Shown here: piece after piece, positions 7,000-34,416 of the stretch
How the letters are laid out: each line of letters starts with the position of its first letter
How positions within the stretch are numbered: the first letter of the stretch is position 1
Origin: a virus
Virus record (IMG/VR): IMGVR_UViG_3300023273_000812
Coordinates: 37,750-101,749 of that record
Length of the DNA stretch: 64,000 nucleotides
Strand: one strand, 5' to 3'
Position numbers and translations under genes: made by a program
Notes under the pieces: generated by a model
The model's database searches: none
What the model was told of the DNA's origin: nothing
The model's input: the letters and a program-made list of their open reading frames with translations, nothing else

Positions 7000-8370
7000 A
7001 TGGCTTTAGACACAAAGTACAGACCACGAAATTATGTAGATGTTTTAGGACAAGAATCTAGTACTGCTGTTTTAAAACAGTTTGTGAAAGAAGGAAAAGG
7101 CTTTCACCAGTCTTATGTGTTTTGTGGTCAACATGGTTCTGGTAAAACAACAATGGGTCGTATTCTAGCCCGTGCTTTATTGTGTTCTAATCCTGTAGAA
7201 GGTGAACCTTGTAATGAGTGCGAATCCTGTAATACCTTTCTAAGTGGTGGTGTACACGCTAACTTTGAAGAGTTAGATGCTGCTACTAGATCAGGTAAGG
7301 CTGACTTAGCACAAATTATAGAAGAACTTAACTACGCTTCCTTTTCAGGTAAAAGAAAGATTTACTTGTTCGACGAGTCCCATCGTTTATCTAAACAGGC
7401 CTTAGATGCGTTATTAAAACCGATGGAAGACACAATAGAAGGAAGTGAAGACAAAAGACTTATCTGTATTTTCTGTACAACAGAACCAGAGAAAATGGTA
7501 TCTACTATCTTCTCTAGATGTGCTCCAGCGTTTGTTATTAAAGCCGTAGACGCAGAAGGTATTGCTGAACGATTGGCTTATGTGTGTGAACAAGAGAGTA
7601 TTAACTATACTATAGATTCCTTAGTAACAATAGCGGAAGTAGCAGAGTGTCACATTAGAGACTGTTTAAAAATGGTTGAAGGTGTGTCTATGTTAGGGGA
7701 CATTAATAAGCAGACAGTTACTCAGTACTTACAGATAGGTGCTAATGATTATATTGTGGACACACTTTTAAACATTGGTGTGGATCTAAATCAATGTGTA
7801 CAGAATACAGATTTACTATCTAAAGAAGTTTCTCCAAGTGTTGCATATGAAAGATTAGCAGATTGTTGTATGGTGGCTTATCGTAAGTTTTTAGGTGTGG
7901 GTAAAGTTCCTAAACAATGGGAGGAGTCCAAGATAGAGGAACTATCTAAGAAGGGTGAACAGTTATTAACATTGTCTATGAAGTTTGCTGCTCCAATACA
8001 TAAACCTAGTAAACAAACATTGGTGTTAGATATAGCAATGTGTCATTATGGAGATAAGTTCCAAGTCCCAGATAATTGTGTTACAATAAACTTTAATAAC
8101 AGTGGTGCTAAATCTTCTACTAATGAGCATAAAAAATCAACAGTAGAAAAGATAAATGTAAGTAATATACAAAGTGAGGTTGTTAAAACAGACAAGCCAG
8201 TAAAGGGTCAGGTAAGTCAGTCTTTAACTCCTACAGGTGTCTGGGTAGACCCTAGAGCCATAAAAAGTATAAATACACAAAAAAGAATCACTAACGGGTT
8301 AGCACCTAATGAGTTTAGATCGATACTACTGTATCATCTGCGGAGACAAATAGATGGAGAGAGATGGTAA
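7000..8370 (+). CDS. dnaX: clamp loader subunit, DnaX (gamma/tau)-like
   Basis: This 456-residue protein has the full DnaX ATPase core. The opening YRPRNYVDVLGQ is family-typical. Walker A is GQHGSGKT (43-50), the zinc-binding set is C62, C71, C74 and C77, Walker B is IYLFDESH (121-128), sensor 1 lies around CTTEPEK, and the arginine finger is the SRC motif at 172-174. It loads the sliding clamp (1935) onto primed DNA using ATP. The C-terminal third is divergent and low in complexity near 365-420. The next gene starts within its last 17 bases, tying clamp loading to the NusG-like gene. The start follows AGGAG. Confidence 0.95.
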   Translation: MALDTKYRPRNYVDVLGQESSTAVLKQFVKEGKGFHQSYVFCGQHGSGKTTMGRILARALLCSNPVEGEPCNECESCNTFLSGGVHANFEELDAATRSGKADLAQIIEELNYASFSGKRKIYLFDESHRLSKQALDALLKPMEDTIEGSEDKRLICIFCTTEPEKMVSTIFSRCAPAFVIKAVDAEGIAERLAYVCEQESINYTIDSLVTIAEVAECHIRDCLKMVEGVSMLGDINKQTVTQYLQIGANDYIVDTLLNIGVDLNQCVQNTDLLSKEVSPSVAYERLADCCMVAYRKFLGVGKVPKQWEESKIEELSKKGEQLLTLSMKFAAPIHKPSKQTLVLDIAMCHYGDKFQVPDNCVTINFNNSGAKSSTNEHKKSTVEKINVSNIQSEVVKTDKPVKGQVSQSLTPTGVWVDPRAIKSINTQKRITNGLAPNEFRSILLYHLRRQIDGERW

Positions 8371-8893: not shown

Positions 8894-9491
8894 GTATTGG
8901 AGTAACTTTGTATATTTTGACAGCCATGACTTTGAAGGAATGTTTTCCAACGAAGACGGTATACATAACTTTCCTACATACAGTGAAGTCTTAGACGAAG
9001 ACTCCCAAGAGAAATTAGATAGTATTAGGGAAGTGTTAGAAGAATTACCACCAAGGGAAGCCGATTTTATTGACTTGTACTTTTTTAAAAAAGTAACACA
9101 GTTGGGTATAGCAGACTTGTTTGGTGTTTCTCAACCTACAGTATGTTATAGGTTAGCTAAAGCCGCTAAAAGATTAAGTTACATAATTAACACACCAAAC
9201 TATCCTATTAGTAGTGTGGAAGAAGACTTGAGGGGTGTGTTAACAGACGAGTTGGACATTAATATAATGTTGTTAATGTTACAAAAAACTTGTCAGTCAG
9301 AAGTAGCCCGAGAATTAAATGTTTCACAAGGATTAGTTCGTTATAGGTTTATGCGTAACTTAAAACAAATTAAAAACTTTAAGGATTTAGATAAAACCAT
9401 ACAGTGTTTAGAGCATGTGTCTAATCACTTTAACATTCTAAAAGACACTAACAGATCAAAACTAGAAGAGTCTATTACTTATTCCTTATAA
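8886..9491 (+). CDS. sigma-region-4-like regulator with two HTH segments
   Basis: This 201-residue protein overlaps the NusG-like gene and follows a GGAGG site. Residues about 48-100 (EVLEELPPREADFIDLYFF, then GIADLFGVSQPTVCYRLAKA) match sigma-70 region 4, which reads the -35 box. A second helix-turn-helix occupies about 128-160 (SEVARELNVSQGLVRYRF). Region 2, which opens the -10 box, is not recognisable. It is therefore a sigma-like or transcriptional activator protein and a candidate reader of the AATA-N5-TYTATAC motif, which is inference. A stand-alone duplicated HTH regulator is the alternative. Confidence 0.75.
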   Translation: MSKYWSNFVYFDSHDFEGMFSNEDGIHNFPTYSEVLDEDSQEKLDSIREVLEELPPREADFIDLYFFKKVTQLGIADLFGVSQPTVCYRLAKAAKRLSYIINTPNYPISSVEEDLRGVLTDELDINIMLLMLQKTCQSEVARELNVSQGLVRYRFMRNLKQIKNFKDLDKTIQCLEHVSNHFNILKDTNRSKLEESITYSL

Positions 9492-9492
9492 C

Positions 9493-9508
9493 AATAAATA
9501 CTTTATAC
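9493..9508 (+). promoter_or_regulatory. late-promoter-like motif AATA-N5-TTTATAC
   Basis: Exact match to the recurring element, starting two bases after the sigma-like gene stop and 32 bases ahead of the start at 9540. Confidence 0.6.
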
Positions 9509-9539
9509 ATTACATAGTGTGTCAGTAAAAAGGATTGTT

Positions 9540-9845
9540 ATGGATAAATCTTCTACCAAAAGAGTACTAATGGCCCGTAGTGTGGCTACACAATGGTTAC
9601 AAAAACATAGTTCGGCTGAGTACAGACTGCATGTGTATCCTACATTAGGCACAGCACAAACTTTACCTTCGTGGTTAAAAGCTTTTAGGGATGGTAAGTC
9701 TAAGTTTGGTAGTTTACAATCTTTTGATTTTGCTGTTGAAATTGGTAGTGATTCCTTTTGTATTCGTAGTCGTGACAAGGATAGCCTCATAACTTTAAAT
9801 GCTAAGTTAGAAGAGATGGGTCACGAAACCTCAGGTGTTTGGTAA
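9540..9845 (+). CDS. hypothetical protein with basic N-terminal motif
   Basis: The ATG at 9540 is preferred over a GTG at 9519 because AAAGGA lies seven bases upstream, giving 101 residues. The N-terminus (KRVLMARSVATQWLQKH) is a basic amphipathic helix like those of other presumed virion cargo proteins here. The rest is mixed alpha/beta. It is the first gene after the presumed late promoter at 9493. No family is recognised. Confidence 0.65.
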   Translation: MDKSSTKRVLMARSVATQWLQKHSSAEYRLHVYPTLGTAQTLPSWLKAFRDGKSKFGSLQSFDFAVEIGSDSFCIRSRDKDSLITLNAKLEEMGHETSGVW

Positions 9846-9846
9846 G

Positions 9847-10275
9847 ATGGCTGTTTCATTAGTACAATCCGAGTTTACTTACCAAAGTGGTACAGCACCT
9901 ACTTTGTATATGTTTACTATTGTATCTGATCTTAGTGGTACATTAAGTGTTCGAGATATACAAGACCCTTATGGTTTTATTATCTCTCCTTATACACAGA
10001 TACCTAAATCAGTAACTGACGACATACAAAGTGCTATGTTGCAAGTGGAGGGTCTTTTGAGTAGTACAAGTGCTTTTAATGGTAGTGTTAACTTTGTAGG
10101 AGAGACTACAAAAGTTATCACTTTCCCAAGTGTACAACCTAACCTAAATTACAGGGTTCATTTAACAAGTGATATATTCGCACCTTTCAAAGTTACAAGT
10201 AAAACACTTACAAGTTTCACTATCGAATGTGGTGCGGAAATTACAGCCACTGTTTCGTTCGATGTTTTTATTTAA
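9847..10275 (+). CDS. putative virion fibre or decoration protein
   Basis: The start at 9847 gives 142 residues; ORF extension to 9835 is possible. The C-terminal 55 residues (ITFPSVQPNLNYRVHLTSD, then KTLTSFTIECG) match a phage fibre pattern in which a 'nY.V' strand is followed by 'sKt..sFtI', also seen at the C-terminus of the protein at 23502. This suggests a small beta-sandwich adhesion or trimerisation domain. It is predicted to be beta-rich and virion-associated; the receptor or location is unknown. Confidence 0.6.
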   Translation: MAVSLVQSEFTYQSGTAPTLYMFTIVSDLSGTLSVRDIQDPYGFIISPYTQIPKSVTDDIQSAMLQVEGLLSSTSAFNGSVNFVGETTKVITFPSVQPNLNYRVHLTSDIFAPFKVTSKTLTSFTIECGAEITATVSFDVFI

Positions 10276-11914: not shown

Positions 11915-11946
11915 AAGGGTACACATACAAGTGTACCCTTCTTTGT
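11915..11946 (+). terminator. intrinsic terminator
   Basis: AAGGGTACAC and its complement enclose a six-base loop and are followed by CTTTGTTT. It closes the operon ending at 11889. Confidence 0.75.
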
Positions 11947-11960
11947 TTATAGGAGATAGT

Positions 11961-12236
11961 ATGGACTCTGTAAGATTTATTAGAGTATGGTGTGTTGTAA
12001 GAGATGGTTTTGTTTACACTAAACAAGGAAACCTAGGACAAGGACACACAGCAATACCTTGGCAGGTTTTATTAAAGTTACATTTTAAAGTACCTTACAC
12101 ACAAGAACTTATATTAAGTGATTGGAATAGTATACCAGATACTAATAAGAAGTATGTCTATATAGATAGAAGAGAACACCAAGTTGTACTACAAGACTAC
12201 TTAGGGGCTTTAGATGAATGGGTAGAACTTAAATAG
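11961..12236 (+). CDS. hypothetical protein
   Basis: ATG 11961 follows AGGAGATAGT and gives 91 residues. In-frame codons upstream lie in the terminator and are rejected. The protein is rich in tryptophan and valine and mixed alpha/beta, ending DYLGALDEWVELK. It stands alone between a terminator and a late-promoter-like motif. No family is recognised. Confidence 0.65.
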   Translation: MDSVRFIRVWCVVRDGFVYTKQGNLGQGHTAIPWQVLLKLHFKVPYTQELILSDWNSIPDTNKKYVYIDRREHQVVLQDYLGALDEWVELK

Positions 12237-12247
12237 TTAGTTTATAC
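12232..12247 (+). promoter_or_regulatory. late-promoter-like motif AATA-N5-TTTATAC
   Basis: Exact match overlapping the stop codon of the preceding gene, 28 bases ahead of the start at 12275. Confidence 0.6.
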
Positions 12248-12274
12248 GCTAATACTATTAAAGTAAGGTTCAGT

Positions 12275-12997
12275 ATGAAAAAACAATCAAAAGCAAATCT
12301 AACACCTAAAAGACAAATAATGGCATCTAACCAAAAGGAAAATAAAATGTCAAGAAAAATAACAGCCAAAGAACTTTTAAGAGAAGTCAGAACTTTGAAG
12401 AAACAAGCAGGTGAGAATCCTTGCGCCCCAAGACTAATTGAATACTCCGAAGATAGTGAGTTAAAGTCTCTGATTGAGCGAAGCATAGGACCAGATGGTT
12501 TGATGTATGGTTGGGGACACTTTACCTTGAAAAATATAGAGGTAGTGGATGGGATCGCGTACTTTGATGGGAACATTTCGGGTGAAGTCCCTGTTATGAA
12601 AGTGACCCCTTGGTTTGAAACTGCTAACCACCCACAAGTACAAAAAGCATTCAAAGAACTTGAGAAAGAACTGAAGTCTTTTGTAGCGAAAAACGGTCTT
12701 TCCGATTTGAGGGTAGTCGCTAGTAACGACGATTATAACAGAAATGTAGACTGGATTACATCGGTTTCTATCGTAGATAGCATAACGAATCGAAAGGTGT
12801 CCTTTCTTATAGGAGGGTGGGACACTGATTCAGCCGTTGTAGAGTCATGGTTGGGAGACCATTGGTCAAAGAAGTTCTCCGGAAATATAGATGCAGATGT
12901 TGCTATGGCAGTTTCAAATATGAGGAAGTTCATCAATAAAGACCTACTCCAGCAAGTATTAGAATCCAGAGCAAAGTTCGAAGCCAGAAAAAGATAA
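12275..12997 (+). CDS. leader-tagged cargo protein; scar of a deleted C39 domain at its N-terminus
   Basis: The 240-residue ORF starts MKKQSKANLTPKRQ, nearly identical to the start of the C39 peptidase at 13002, and then passes directly into IMASNQKENKMSRKITAKEL, the leader that follows the peptidase there. It therefore looks like the neighbour with its peptidase domain removed. ATG 12347 (MSRKITAKELLREVR), behind AAAAGGA, is an alternative start. The cargo part resembles the protein at 60068 (IEY...EL...PWF versus IEY...EV...PWW) and is probably its paralogue. Codon choice is richer in G and C than in neighbours, consistent with recent acquisition. Function is unknown. Confidence 0.7.
   Translation: MKKQSKANLTPKRQIMASNQKENKMSRKITAKELLREVRTLKKQAGENPCAPRLIEYSEDSELKSLIERSIGPDGLMYGWGHFTLKNIEVVDGIAYFDGNISGEVPVMKVTPWFETANHPQVQKAFKELEKELKSFVAKNGLSDLRVVASNDDYNRNVDWITSVSIVDSITNRKVSFLIGGWDTDSAVVESWLGDHWSKKFSGNIDADVAMAVSNMRKFINKDLLQQVLESRAKFEARKR
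12290..12316 (+). repeat. leader repeat A, copy 1
   Basis: 27 bases identical to 13017-13043; they encode the SKANLTPKRQ part of the N-terminal leader. Confidence 0.9.
12317..12384 (+). repeat. leader repeat B, copy 1 (68 bp)
   Basis: 68 bases identical to 13825-13892. They contain an ATG, an AAAAGGA ribosome binding site, a second ATG and the codons for MSRKITAKELLRE. A diverged copy lies at 13506-13547. Confidence 0.95.
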
Positions 12998-13001
12998 TCT
13001 T

Positions 13002-13838
13002 ATGCGAAAACAATCTAAAGCAAATCTAACACCTAAAAGACAACGAACTCAATACTCATGTATGGCTACCTCAATGAGTATGTGTTTACAGGCCTTAGAC
13101 TATCCACACGCTAATGAGGATGAAGTCAATAAGGTAATGGGTGCTTTACCGATGAGAGGGGCCGCTTGGGAACAAGCTTTGGCATGTGCTCAGCATTATG
13201 GGTGTAGAGCCACATTAACAATGCCTTCTACAGTTAAGCAATTAAAAGAATGGACTGACCGAGGTGTTCCTGTAATGATTGCTTGGAACCCAGAGGGTCG
13301 TGATTGGTCTCATGCTTCTGTAGTCTTCGATGTAGATGAAGACTTAAATGTATATGTTGCTGACCCTAACATTCCAGACCCAGATGAAACTGTAAGGGTT
13401 GTACCTAAAACAGAGTTCTATTCAAAGTGGTACGAGAAGTGGCCGAATTATCTAGTTCGTCGCCCTGCCTGCGCTATCGAGAGAGAAATAACTCCGGATG
13501 GGAGACAAATAATGGCATCTAAAAAGGAGAATAAAATGTCAAGAAATCCAGAAATAAGAAAAATTGCTCGAGAAATCGAATCTATTAAAGGTCAATTACA
13601 AGGCAAAACAGCAGGGACTTGGGATCTTGGAACAGAACTTTCTGCGTTGAAGAAAAACTCTGGAATCCATTTCAAGTTATCAGACAAGTTAATTGGGGAA
13701 GCCGTGGGAGAAGTGCAATTATACGAAGATTTGCGTAAAGGCTACAGCCTTTTAGATCAAGTAAAAGCGATGTTGCAACAAACAATAGAAGAAATCGAAT
13801 CCATGCAGAGAAAAATTAAGTCTGATAATGGCATCTAA
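13002..13838 (+). CDS. C39-like cysteine peptidase fused to a leader-bearing helical protein
   Basis: The 278-residue ORF has three parts. Residues 1-14 are the leader MRKQSKANLTPKRQ. Residues 15-165 are a papain-like C39 domain: the nucleophile is C20 in TQYSCMATSMSM, with Q17 as oxyanion helper, H104 in WSHASVVFDVD, and D121 in VADPNI completing the triad. Residues 171-278 begin with a diverged copy of leader B (MASKKENKMSRN) and continue as a helical protein. ATG 13536, behind AAAAAGGAG, could start this last part separately. C39 peptidases commonly cleave leader peptides, so the neighbouring leaders are candidate substrates; this is inference. Confidence 0.8.
   Translation: MRKQSKANLTPKRQRTQYSCMATSMSMCLQALDYPHANEDEVNKVMGALPMRGAAWEQALACAQHYGCRATLTMPSTVKQLKEWTDRGVPVMIAWNPEGRDWSHASVVFDVDEDLNVYVADPNIPDPDETVRVVPKTEFYSKWYEKWPNYLVRRPACAIEREITPDGRQIMASKKENKMSRNPEIRKIAREIESIKGQLQGKTAGTWDLGTELSALKKNSGIHFKLSDKLIGEAVGEVQLYEDLRKGYSLLDQVKAMLQQTIEEIESMQRKIKSDNGI
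13017..13043 (+). repeat. leader repeat A, copy 2
   Basis: 27 bases identical to 12290-12316. Confidence 0.9.
13506..13547 (+). repeat. leader repeat B, diverged copy
   Basis: ACAAATAATGGCATCTAA, a shifted ribosome binding site and ATGTCAAGAAA match repeat B with substitutions. It is fused in frame behind the C39 domain. Confidence 0.8.
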
Positions 13839-13892
13839 CCAAAAGGAAAATAAAATGTCAAGAAAAATAACAGCCAAAGAACTTTTAAGAGA
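13825..13892 (+). repeat. leader repeat B, copy 2 (68 bp)
   Basis: 68 bases identical to 12317-12384. It overlaps the end of the upstream ORF, so the repeat spans a gene boundary. Confidence 0.95.
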
Positions 13893-14568
13893 GGTTCGTG
13901 CGATTAAAAAATTAGCCGCGGGTACAAGTATTCCATCGGTTTTTCCATCTATTACAAGACAATTAAACATTCCAGAAGGTGTACAGTTCCTTCCTGATGG
14001 TAGTGGTGAGTTTGAAATTATTACAGAAAACGGCGAACATATTTACGCTGTTTTAGGAGATAGTGGTTACGAAATTAGTGGAAAAGGTGCTAAGAAACCT
14101 TTTATTAAAGCAGACATTACTTTCGATGAAGAGGGTGAAGGTGTTACAAACGATCCTAAATCCATTGTGAGTGCTATTCAAACTATGTTAAACTGGTACG
14201 ACAATGCTTTGTTAACCTCTATTAAAGACGACGAACTGGAAATGAGAAAACTTTTCTCTATGGCTTTTAAAGGTAGTAGAACCTTTGATTATGATAGTTG
14301 GTATAAAAAAGGTAAGATTTATATTATTACAGGTAAGTCTTACGGTATGCCACAGCAAGTTGTTGGTGGCGGCGGTATAGAGTTTCAGATCTATAGAGAG
14401 GGGGATAATAAGGCCAGTGTAAACGCTTTATACCCAGATAAAAGACGACATATGGGAACTTATATTGTTAACAATGTCCAATGGACTGCTAATGGTGTTC
14501 CATTAATTGACCCACGAGAATTTAAAAAGATTTTCTCTAAGGTTAGCGCTAAAACTAAAAAATGGTAA
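13855..14568 (+). CDS. leader-tagged cargo protein
   Basis: ATG 13855, behind AAAAGGA, gives 237 residues starting MSRKITAKELLREVRAIKKL. ATG 13828 is in frame and adds nine residues. The leader is DNA-identical to that at 12347 up to LLRE and then diverges. The cargo is mixed alpha/beta, with a glycine-rich VVGGGGIEF segment near 185. No family is recognised. The combination of an identical leader with unrelated cargo is the pattern of a modular targeting signal. Confidence 0.75.
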   Translation: MSRKITAKELLREVRAIKKLAAGTSIPSVFPSITRQLNIPEGVQFLPDGSGEFEIITENGEHIYAVLGDSGYEISGKGAKKPFIKADITFDEEGEGVTNDPKSIVSAIQTMLNWYDNALLTSIKDDELEMRKLFSMAFKGSRTFDYDSWYKKGKIYIITGKSYGMPQQVVGGGGIEFQIYREGDNKASVNALYPDKRRHMGTYIVNNVQWTANGVPLIDPREFKKIFSKVSAKTKKW

Positions 14569-31493: not shown

Positions 31494-32882
31494 ATGGCGT
31501 TCCTTAAGAAAGCAAATGCTGTTGTAGTACATCCTCGTATTAATACTCAAAACTGGTCTAACATTAGAACGGCTAGTGGTAATGGTTCTAACTTTACTAC
31601 ACAAGCAAAAGACATTTTAGGTGGTGATATAGATCCTAATAAGTACTTGTTTACACATTGTACTATTGTTGCTAGTGTAGATACAGATACTGTACCTGGT
31701 GTTAAAACAGGTTCCAAGGTCGTAGAAGGTAATAAGACTATTCAAAGACCTTACGCGGATTACTATATTAAACCACAATGTTCACAGTTTGTTAATAACA
31801 ACGGGGACAGTTGGTCTAGAGAAGTTTTATTAGCCTCCTACAGAAGTTTTATTGGAGCACATAACTTTCAAGAGCATGTTCAAATAGAAGAACAGTCTAA
31901 AGGTCGTATTATTGACGCAGTGGCTAGAGACATTGGGGATAGTGTATACATTGACATCCTTGTGGCCACAGATAGAAAACACGCTCAGTTAGTAAGTGAC
32001 ATTGAAAATGGAAACCTTACTACATTATCTATGGGTTGTACGACAGAGTTTACTATTTGTTCTCAGTGCGGAAACTTGGCTGTAGACGAACCACAATTGT
32101 GTGACCATATTAAGTACAGTAAACTTAATACTTTTATGGACGAGAGTGGACAGAAAAGAGTTGTAGCAGAGTTATGTGGACATAAAGATTACAGTACTAA
32201 TGGTGGTGTAAACTTTATAGAGGCTTCTTGGGTTGGTGTACCTGCGTTTACAGGCGCTGTAATGAGGAACATTATTACACCAGAGTCTATTCCAGTACAA
32301 GCCACACAAGTTTTAAATACTGTCCCCACACAATGGGATAATACACAATCTTTAAAAGCCGCAAGTTATGAAATGTTTAGACATGCTGAAGAAGGGGATG
32401 AGGTTGTAGAAGAAACACCAGTCCCTAGTAGTTCTTTTAAAGATTTAGAAGACGAGATGTACAACAGTATTAAAACCAGAGTACAAGATCGTATTAAACA
32501 AGAGTTGGAAAACTCTAATGTTAACTTACCTCCAGCAGATGGTCCTAATGACTCTATTATTAAAGAGGGTTCTAAAGTAAAACAGGCACAAACTATTTAT
32601 AAAGTTGCTATGGGTACTTTAGTAAAGACTAGTCAGGATCACTTTGATGTTGTAAGGGGTGTAAGTAAAGTTAATGAAAGTTTTGGTATTTACTTACCTC
32701 AAAGTTTATATGTGGCTGCTATTAAGTTAGGTTCTGTTCGAAAATACGGGAGTATTAATGAATACAGAAAAGCCTTAACAAAGGTAGCAACCTCTAATCG
32801 TTTTAATGCTGTTGGTATCCGAATGTTAGTTCGTATTGGCACATTACTATCCCAGTGGGAATCTTTTAACAATAAACAATAA
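31494..32882 (+). CDS. capsid maturation (prohead) protease
   Basis: This 462-residue protein has the layout of herpesvirus-assemblin-like phage proteases. The segment NNNGDSWSREVLLASYRSFIGAHNFQEH contains the expected histidine region near 122-127. LSMGC near 177-182 supplies the serine. A four-cysteine insert (ICSQCGN, LCDHI), probably zinc-binding, follows, as in many large-phage proteases. The C-terminal 200 residues are helical. It would cleave the scaffold and probably tagged core proteins during maturation. The scaffold gene follows after 13 bases. Confidence 0.8.
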   Translation: MAFLKKANAVVVHPRINTQNWSNIRTASGNGSNFTTQAKDILGGDIDPNKYLFTHCTIVASVDTDTVPGVKTGSKVVEGNKTIQRPYADYYIKPQCSQFVNNNGDSWSREVLLASYRSFIGAHNFQEHVQIEEQSKGRIIDAVARDIGDSVYIDILVATDRKHAQLVSDIENGNLTTLSMGCTTEFTICSQCGNLAVDEPQLCDHIKYSKLNTFMDESGQKRVVAELCGHKDYSTNGGVNFIEASWVGVPAFTGAVMRNIITPESIPVQATQVLNTVPTQWDNTQSLKAASYEMFRHAEEGDEVVEETPVPSSSFKDLEDEMYNSIKTRVQDRIKQELENSNVNLPPADGPNDSIIKEGSKVKQAQTIYKVAMGTLVKTSQDHFDVVRGVSKVNESFGIYLPQSLYVAAIKLGSVRKYGSINEYRKALTKVATSNRFNAVGIRMLVRIGTLLSQWESFNNKQ

Positions 32883-32895
32883 ACAGGAGTCTAAA

Positions 32896-34416
32896 ATGAG
32901 ACGACGATCTTTTAGAAACCGCTCAGTTATGAGCAACTCCCGCACAGCAAACACCGCTAGACGGGATAGTTCTTTTGGTTCTAACACTGAAAGAAAAGCC
33001 AAGTTAACTCGTAGACAAGCTTTAAGAAGACTTGAAGCCTTGTCCTCTTTGCCAGAAGGTGAAATGGATCACCCAGCAGCACAAGCACAACCTGCTTTCA
33101 ACAAGTATGAAAAAGGTGACACTTCTGCTTGGGGTGAAGATGTACACTCTGGTCCTTACACCAATGGTGAACACCCAGCAACACCAGATGAAGGTCCTTC
33201 ACATCCAGCATACAAGTCGGCTCGTGAAATGGCTCGTTTGGAGCGCAAGGCTTCTAAGTGTGTTCGTATCGCAGAACTTACATTAGGTAGAACAGCCTCT
33301 GCTAGACAAATTGAAAACAAAGCTTTGTCTTTAATGGATACTCCTGATGCTATTCTTAACCGTCGTTTAAATCGTTTGGCTTCTATGGAAGAAAAAATGG
33401 AACACGAAATGATGGAAGAGTCCATGCAAGAAAAGATGGAATGGATGGATGGACAGATGGAAGAAGCCATGGAAGAAAGTGAAATGGTAGAAAGCATGAA
33501 GTCCGCACAATTGTTAAAGCGTTTGGCTGGTCTTGAGTCTAAACTTGTTAAGTTAGCCGAAGAAGAAGAAAAGGCTGAAGAACAAGTAGAAGAGTCTAAA
33601 GAGGAATCTAAGGAAGAATCTAAGGAAGAATCTAAAGAGGAAGCCAAGAAAAAAGCATCCTTGCTTCGTAGATTGTCTTTCTTAGAGCGTAAGTTAAAAA
33701 GACTTGCTGCTGAAGAAGAGGCAATGGAAGAAGAAGCGGAAGAAAAGCCTGAAGAGTCTAAAAAGAAAGCCCGTTTGTTAGCCATGCGTCGTAGAAGAGC
33801 CGCAGAGGAAATGGAAGAATCTAAAGAGGAATCTAAAGAGGAATCTAAAGAGGAATCTAAAGAGGAATCTAAAGAAGAAGCCAAGAAAAAAGCTTTTGCT
33901 AACTTGACTCGTACACAAAAACAAGCAATGTTCGAGTTCATGATGGACATGATGGGTGAAGACTTCGCTCCTGTAGTTGAAGAAGAAATTGTTGAAGAAG
34001 CAATGTCTCCTGAAATGGCTGAAATGATGGAAGCCGAAATGATGGAAGACCAAGCTTTGGAAATGATGTCTGACCTTGACGACCCAATGGGTGTAATGGA
34101 TGAGTCTATGTCTGATGCTGAAATGATGATCCTTTCACGCTTGTTTGGTAAGAACGCAGAAGATGCTGAAAAGAAAAAAGAAGACGAAGAAAAAGCTGAG
34201 TCTGAAGCGGCGGAAACTGTACAAGAGGAAGTAGAAGAAGAAGCCAAAGAAGAAAAGAAAGAAGAGTCTAAAAAGAAAGCCTCTTTAAGACCACAACCTA
34301 AGAAGGCTGCTACTGGAGCCACTAGATTGGGTGGTGTATCTAAAGAAGCCTCTGATGATCTTTCTGACTTGTCTAAACTTTGGGCATCTGCTCCTGACAT
34401 TCGTCGTTTCTTCTAA
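32896..34416 (+). CDS. scaffold/prohead core protein with KEES repeats
   Basis: ATG 32896 behind CAGGAG gives 506 residues; an upstream TTG start is rejected. Residues 33-48 (AKLTRRQALRRLEAL) repeat the basic motif of the polyprotein at 10288, with 23 bases of identical DNA. From about residue 170 the protein is a methionine-, glutamate- and lysine-rich helix with tandem ESKEE units ending in EAKKKA near 230-255 and 310-335. Very acidic, helical proteins between protease and major capsid protein are typical scaffolds, removed by the protease during maturation. It ends in IRRFF, possibly a capsid-binding tail. Confidence 0.8.
   Translation: MRRRSFRNRSVMSNSRTANTARRDSSFGSNTERKAKLTRRQALRRLEALSSLPEGEMDHPAAQAQPAFNKYEKGDTSAWGEDVHSGPYTNGEHPATPDEGPSHPAYKSAREMARLERKASKCVRIAELTLGRTASARQIENKALSLMDTPDAILNRRLNRLASMEEKMEHEMMEESMQEKMEWMDGQMEEAMEESEMVESMKSAQLLKRLAGLESKLVKLAEEEEKAEEQVEESKEESKEESKEESKEEAKKKASLLRRLSFLERKLKRLAAEEEAMEEEAEEKPEESKKKARLLAMRRRRAAEEMEESKEESKEESKEESKEESKEEAKKKAFANLTRTQKQAMFEFMMDMMGEDFAPVVEEEIVEEAMSPEMAEMMEAEMMEDQALEMMSDLDDPMGVMDESMSDAEMMILSRLFGKNAEDAEKKKEDEEKAESEAAETVQEEVEEEAKEEKKEESKKKASLRPQPKKAATGATRLGGVSKEASDDLSDLSKLWASAPDIRRFF
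33592..33656 (+). repeat. tandem GAATCTAAGGAA-type repeats, block 1
   Basis: 12-base units encoding ESKE, several copies, ending in EEAKKKA. Confidence 0.85.
33818..33893 (+). repeat. tandem GAATCTAAAGAG repeats, block 2
   Basis: Five near-identical 12-base units encoding ESKE, ending in EEAKKKA as in block 1. This looks like recent slippage expansion. Confidence 0.9.

Follow-up and report, generated by a model that had tools for sequence, protein, structure and literature searches.

How does a phage come to carry, directly beside a peptidase gene, a shorter gene that opens with the same codons and then continues into something else? Genes 12275 and 13002 raise this question. They lie in a 64,000-nucleotide stretch of viral DNA (the window), which corresponds to bases 37,750–101,749 of a 101.7-kb IMG/VR virus record; the array features and leader-B genes whose coordinates are given below are all on the plus strand. 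A first-pass annotation read 13002 as leader A, a C39 domain, leader B and a cargo, and 12275 as a derivative of it from which the peptidase had been deleted between two copies of a short repeat. Comparison with related phages leads us to lean towards a different origin, the capture of cargo cassettes at the borders of the C39 module.

Setting of the locus

Within the phage collection the window virus is closest to LR745208.1, a 485-kb metagenomic phage without annotation (TerL 54%). We hold with moderate confidence that the window virus is a very large tailed phage and that the locus is a cassette array spanning 12275–14568. Downstream of the array come a gene pair (17805, 18377), TerL and the portal gene, and the C39 gene likewise precedes a 17805/18377-type pair, TerL and portal genes in the relatives L003, L004, L024 and L027. 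A strong terminator-like hairpin (10 pairs) stands upstream of the array at 11915–11940, so 11961–14568 may form one transcription unit; a promoter scan gave nothing above shuffled sequences. The composition of 12275 is mildly unusual at most (GC 0.409, 91st percentile). A search with the 13002 protein returned 50 viral loci, which an added alignment search extended to 68 unique loci in total, and a literature search turned up no publication that describes these C39 proteins in large phages.

A single-copy peptidase module with variable partners

The first part of gene 13002 (13002–13520) encodes a papain-like peptidase module of the C39 type that ends in GRQIMAS and matches Pfam Peptidase_C39_2 (PF13529) with 37.3 bits against a cut-off of 24 (E = 5e-9). 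Gln14, Cys20, His104 and Asp121 are invariant in all 28 of the aligned modules, and are the predicted catalytic set, with roles assigned from family knowledge and from the fold; Gln14, six residues before the Cys, is presumably the oxyanion glutamine. The AF2 model of the module (pLDDT 87.7, with residues 1–10 and those past ∼161 less ordered) groups in Foldseek and VIA-align with the pseudomurein endoisopeptidase PeiR and the C39 domains of PCAT1 and ComA (Z = 17–19), which it resembles in fold and in catalytic residue pattern, and PeiR is also related to it by sequence. Unlike PCAT1 and ComA, the phage C39 has no attached ABC transporter, and no double-glycine leader substrate was seen.

In all 28 aligned proteins the module opens with A...RQ..Q(Y/F).C and closes near G.Q, after which a variable partner follows; the 3′ border G(R/K)Q(V/I)MAS is kept in most relatives, and the module as a whole has the pattern M..(T/S)AKA..PxRQ ... 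G(R/K)Q(V/I)MAS. What the first-pass annotation had called leader A is thus a real repeat but not a separate leader, since in every relative it is the N-terminus of the peptidase itself. In 13002 the 3′ border (13503–13535) embeds a strong Shine-Dalgarno site, AAAAGGAGAATAAA (energy −8.7), and is followed by an in-frame cargo of 100 aa (MSRNPEIRKIAREIESIKG..., 13536–13838) that matched no database family. Cargo of 45–970 aa continues past the module in 51 of the 68 C39 proteins.

Three loci of this collection have peculiarities of their own. L086 holds a second, divergent C39-like domain at 7106 (E = 3e-6), close to its main C39 gene; in L126 (6001–6510) a frameshift breaks the C39 gene in its last third and leaves the final 26 residues in another frame; and L133 and L134 come from bacterial MAGs, one labelled Actinomycetota, and are probably phage contigs.

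The junction in gene 12275

Gene 12275 is assembled from three pieces. The first (12274–12316) is a 5′ fragment of the C39 gene, its first 14 codons (MKKQSKANLTPKRQ); these 43 nt are 93% identical to 13001–13043 and include the first 42 coding bases of 13002, bearing out the shared starts reported earlier. The second (12317–12346) is a remnant of the C39 3′ border (QIMAS) with a spacer carrying the Shine-Dalgarno site AAAAGGAAAATAAA, and is identical to 13825–13854. The third (12347–12997) is a leader-B cargo gene (MSRKITAKELLREVRTLKKQAG plus a 194-aa cargo) with an internal ATG (Shine-Dalgarno energy −5.6) and a leader HMM match of 2.9e-13. The Cys, His and Asp of the C39 module are lost.

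The join was correctly placed at AGACAA, a word found at each end of the peptidase segment of 13002 (left copy 13038–13043; right copy 13503–13508, put around 13504 before). The two copies are 465 bp or 155 codons apart, so the join is in frame, and the chance that a random junction within the window shows 6 nt or more of microhomology is 0.0028. The longer word AGACAAATAATGGCATCTAA is present twice, at 12311–12330 and 13503–13522.

The downstream half of 12275 identifies its closest partner. Bases 12317–12346 match 13509–13535 except for one codon, 13002 having the border without that codon, whereas 12317–12384 is identical over 68 bases to 13825–13892 and so reaches into a third gene, 13828, which the first-pass annotation had left aside. 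Gene 13002 has in common with this part of 12275 only the border and roughly ten bases at the start of the leader-B gene, the 13002 cargo diverging after MSR; the leader B said to be common to the two is therefore mostly shared with 13828 instead. Gene 12275 thus did not arise by deletion from 13002 itself: recombination joining a C39 5′ end to a C39 3′ border at the 6-bp word stands, and 13002 as its donor does not. The third gene lies directly downstream, where a second border remnant (13825–13854), whose TAA closes the 13002 reading frame, precedes an orphan leader-B cargo gene (MSRKITAKELLREVRAIKKLAAG..., 13855–14568; leader HMM 2.4e-12; Shine-Dalgarno energy −5.6 at 13855 versus −2.7 at 13828).

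A deletion could still have operated on another copy. If a gene of the form C39–leader B–cargo had been duplicated in tandem, loss of the peptidase between the AGACAA repeats of one copy would give 12275, and we regard this as possible though unlikely. That the join is in frame and falls exactly on a 6-nt repeat speaks for it, as do the near-identity of the two 5′ ends and the fact that a C39-KQIMAS-leader B-cargo fusion is known from L003; deletion inside a gene with that border yields the identical join and explains the sequence of 12275 equally well. However, each of the 39 phage records over which copies were counted contains exactly one full C39 gene and none contains a tandem pair, the intermediate that this route requires, and the simple deletion first proposed lacks support on the same count. 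The downstream half of 12275 also derives from a 13828-type gene.

Leader B belongs to a separate gene family

The element first described as leader B proved to be composite: its QIMAS closes the C39 module, and what follows is a Shine-Dalgarno site with the beginning of a gene family in its own right. Leader B proper (MSRKITAKELLREVR..KKLA(S/A)) defines a genome-wide leader family, MSRK.TAKELL.EVR..KKLAS, whose HMM matches 12275, 13828, 60068, 62395, two genes of the record outside the window (∼10.7 and 11.4 kb) and three genes of the L003 phage. Apart from 12275 and 13828, the leader-B genes of this phage have no C39 piece. Gene 60068 (60068–60568) is free-standing with its own start site and shares 52% identity over 89 aa with another free-standing gene, at 11.4 kb of the record; 62395 (62395–63039) is free-standing and carries leucine-rich repeats. 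These free-standing copies open with Shine-Dalgarno sites of their own. In the array, too, the internal starts (12347, −5.6; 13536, −8.7; 13855, −5.6) have stronger sites than the outer starts (12275, −3.9; 13002, −0.9; 13828, −2.7). The assumption that the peptidase-containing form came first is thus partly contradicted within the same phage, where, judging from sequence, 60068-like genes would be the nearest thing to a short form that preceded it.

The 12275 cargo is weakly similar to 60068, collinear from just past the leader (shuffle p = 0.003); homology to the 13828 cargo beyond the leader was considered and ruled out (shuffle p = 0.95). No nuclease family matched 12275, which accordingly does not qualify as a homing endonuclease gene, and an AF2 model of its isolated cargo was poor (pLDDT 44). 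When the 12275 and 13828 cargos were searched for relatives, viral contigs yielded only the same phage, and 38 related phage records only matches to the leader. Close to the free-standing genes, 61584–62135 is a possible frameshifted or split gene, with an early MNENKN start out of frame with LENLLSSKDPSLVQQGLVLNE..., a segment like those with which 10288 and 62395 begin (LL.SG..G.INQA).

The same topology recurs with other genes

The arrangement of a 5′ gene piece, a foreign gene and then the intact gene occurs in the window and in L012, L047, L125, L082 and L003. In L012 (6962), L047 (7073) and L125 (4724), which probably share one event, a C39 5′ fragment is fused in frame to an HTH-repeat protein and the intact C39 gene comes next; the HTH part in L012 matches GIY-YIG nucleases from Vibrio phages. 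In L082 (5220) the C39 5′ fragment is in frame with GIY-YIG (PF01541) and NUMOD3 (PF07460) domains, both above their Pfam cut-offs, and again the intact C39 gene is next; it is the only C39 5′-fragment fusion in which a nuclease domain was recognized. The L003 array opens with C39-KQIMAS-leader B-cargo; there follows AAACAAATAATGGCATC...leader B-cargo2, headed by and joined to a 5′ piece of its downstream neighbour, and after it this neighbour in full, so that 9007–9990 reproduces the topology of the window with a target gene other than C39. The gene whose 5′ end is duplicated there (Gene X, 9490–9990) looks by eye like a GNAT acetyltransferase; Pfam gave no match.

An HTH-repeat gene lies directly 5′ of C39 in L014, L012, L047, L125 and L145 (LR745208), overlapping the C39 start in several of them, and the two form a conserved gene pair with or without the C39 leader piece. 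The middle domain of the HTH-repeat protein (YPEALIDLYWHEQ...VEYAGF) resembles PD-(D/E)XK/Vsr nucleases by eye only.

The 3′ border is duplicated as well, at 13828, L003 9070, L019 8748 and in L134. In L134 the last 49 C39 codons are repeated within a single reading frame and lead into another cargo. In L019 GRQVMAS occurs twice, and the cargo behind the second occurrence exists as a free-standing gene in L003 (54% identity). When phages bearing the 5′ insertion were compared pairwise with phages lacking it, no collinear empty site emerged, and searches of viral contigs for an empty-site sister of the window phage returned the same phage alone.

Recurrence with unrelated genes is accounted for by capture, whereas the versions with a homing endonuclease or with another target gene, in L082 and L003, have no origin in a deletion inside a C39 gene. 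The common start could instead be a tag and not a scar, if MxRRTAKADVxP were a targeting or processing leader attached to different proteins by selection. The peptide is indeed found in frame on three unrelated proteins and is kept despite codon divergence (10 synonymous and 6 non-synonymous differences over 19 codons between the L012 fragment and its own C39 gene), and the first 10 residues are less ordered in the C39 model. Yet the retained piece often takes in residues of the peptidase fold, as with RQRTQYTC in L047, it was seen only directly upstream of the C39 gene in the loci scanned, and in L014 and LR745208 the HTH gene occupies the same site, abutting C39, without it; we think such reuse improbable. 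An assembly artefact or chance repeat, conceivable for a metagenomic contig, is hardly credible given repeats of 43 and 68 nt, an unchanged layout of the locus in a second assembly, 13 SNPs apart over 16.8 kb, and the same pattern in independent relatives.

Under capture, which we consider somewhat better than an even prospect on the sequence comparisons, the C39 module would be a fixed element whose C-terminal partner has been replaced repeatedly in different phages, with both borders serving as entry points for new DNA. A cargo newly added at the 3′ border would leave its predecessor downstream as an orphan with a border remnant, as at 13828; a foreign gene entering at the 5′ border would be set in frame after the first 10–20 codons, with the intact peptidase gene next to it. 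Gene 12275 would then be a captured leader-B cargo cassette that already bore a remnant of the C39 3′ border before recombination across the 6-bp AGACAA attached it to the C39 start. We infer this order of events, and microhomology or homing-type break repair as its driver, from the arrangement of the pieces.

Cargo proteins and a putative processing motif

The claim that the locus displays cargo shuffling holds well beyond the window. The cargos are mosaics of shuffled modules: L044 carries an L041 module and an L040 module in tandem, each of which directly follows C39 in its own locus. Pfam, PHROGs and PADLOC named almost nothing in the 51 cargos and recognized no toxin or immunity family; EF-hand matches came from one member only, which by its sequence (DTNKDGVLSREE) is L035 (8526–11435).

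The motif [KR][TLVIM]A[SA] is ninefold enriched in the cargos (79 observed versus 8.8 expected) and sixfold enriched in virion-like proteins of the window (11 versus 1.8), with none in ten enzyme-like or other non-structural proteins. It stands at residues 16–19 of the leader-B genes, at residue 38 of the portal protein, and at residues 24 and 25, respectively, of the putative major capsid protein and the putative prohead protease (31494), names that come from gene order and sequence and not from a database match. A putative scaffold protein with KEESKEE repeats (32836–34416) contains [KR][LT]A[SA] three times.

The internal proteins of T4 and the ejection proteins of SPN3US carry propeptides that are cleaved by the prohead protease (PMC7411985). 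The phage genes described here resemble them in a short N-terminal leader with a cut-like motif, in the head-gene region, and in a leader common to unrelated proteins. They differ in the motif itself ([KR][TLVIM]A[SA] versus the T4-like motif) and in the presence of a second, cysteine peptidase. By this analogy the cargo proteins and the peptidase are read as putative head-internal proteins with cut leaders, the motif providing a statistical basis. Leader B, ∼20 aa ending in KKLA(S/A), would act as a T4-like capsid-targeting sequence removed by the prohead protease, and the flexible GRQ(V/I)MAS tail is the likely site of a predicted cut between peptidase and cargo.

Relation to cassette exchange and homing

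The locus appears close in logic to the orphan modules of CDI/Rhs systems (PMC3150448) and to homing-gene insertion (PMC10448857). CDI/Rhs polymorphic toxins have orphan C-terminal modules and the junction peptide VENN (Poole et al. 2011, PMC3150448). The phage genes likewise have a conserved N-terminal part, a hypervariable C-terminal part and a short junction peptide (GRQ(V/I)MAS in place of VENN), and downstream orphans that retain a piece of the junction (13828, L003 9070, L134, L019). Unlike CDI/Rhs, this is a phage head-region gene, for which the Pfam, PHROGs and PADLOC scans found no immunity genes or known toxin domains; its orphans have ribosome sites of their own, and its N-terminal part is a peptidase and not a secretion stalk. 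With phage homing endonuclease genes (GIY-YIG/NUMOD3; PMC10448857) the locus shares variable presence beside a conserved phage gene, as well as the GIY-YIG and NUMOD3 domains in L082 and HTH repeats in L012, L047 and L125. In-frame fusion to 10–20 target codons beside an intact target, and a 12275 cargo that lacks a nuclease domain, set it apart from them.

A further reading, quite tentative and rather doubtful, is that very large phages carry a polymorphic cargo system in which a single head-packaged C39 module would cut itself from its partner at GRQ(V/I)MAS, recombination at the borders would reload partners, and homing endonucleases would spread through the 5′ border. If true, such a system would do for host-injected phage proteins what cassette exchange does in Rhs/CDI systems. 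It would tie together a conserved phage peptidase, hypervariable virion-type cargo and homing-type gene insertion, and, if right, the G(R/K)Q(V/I)MAS border together with the AKA..PxRQ start would provide a handle for the injected effectors of very large phages.
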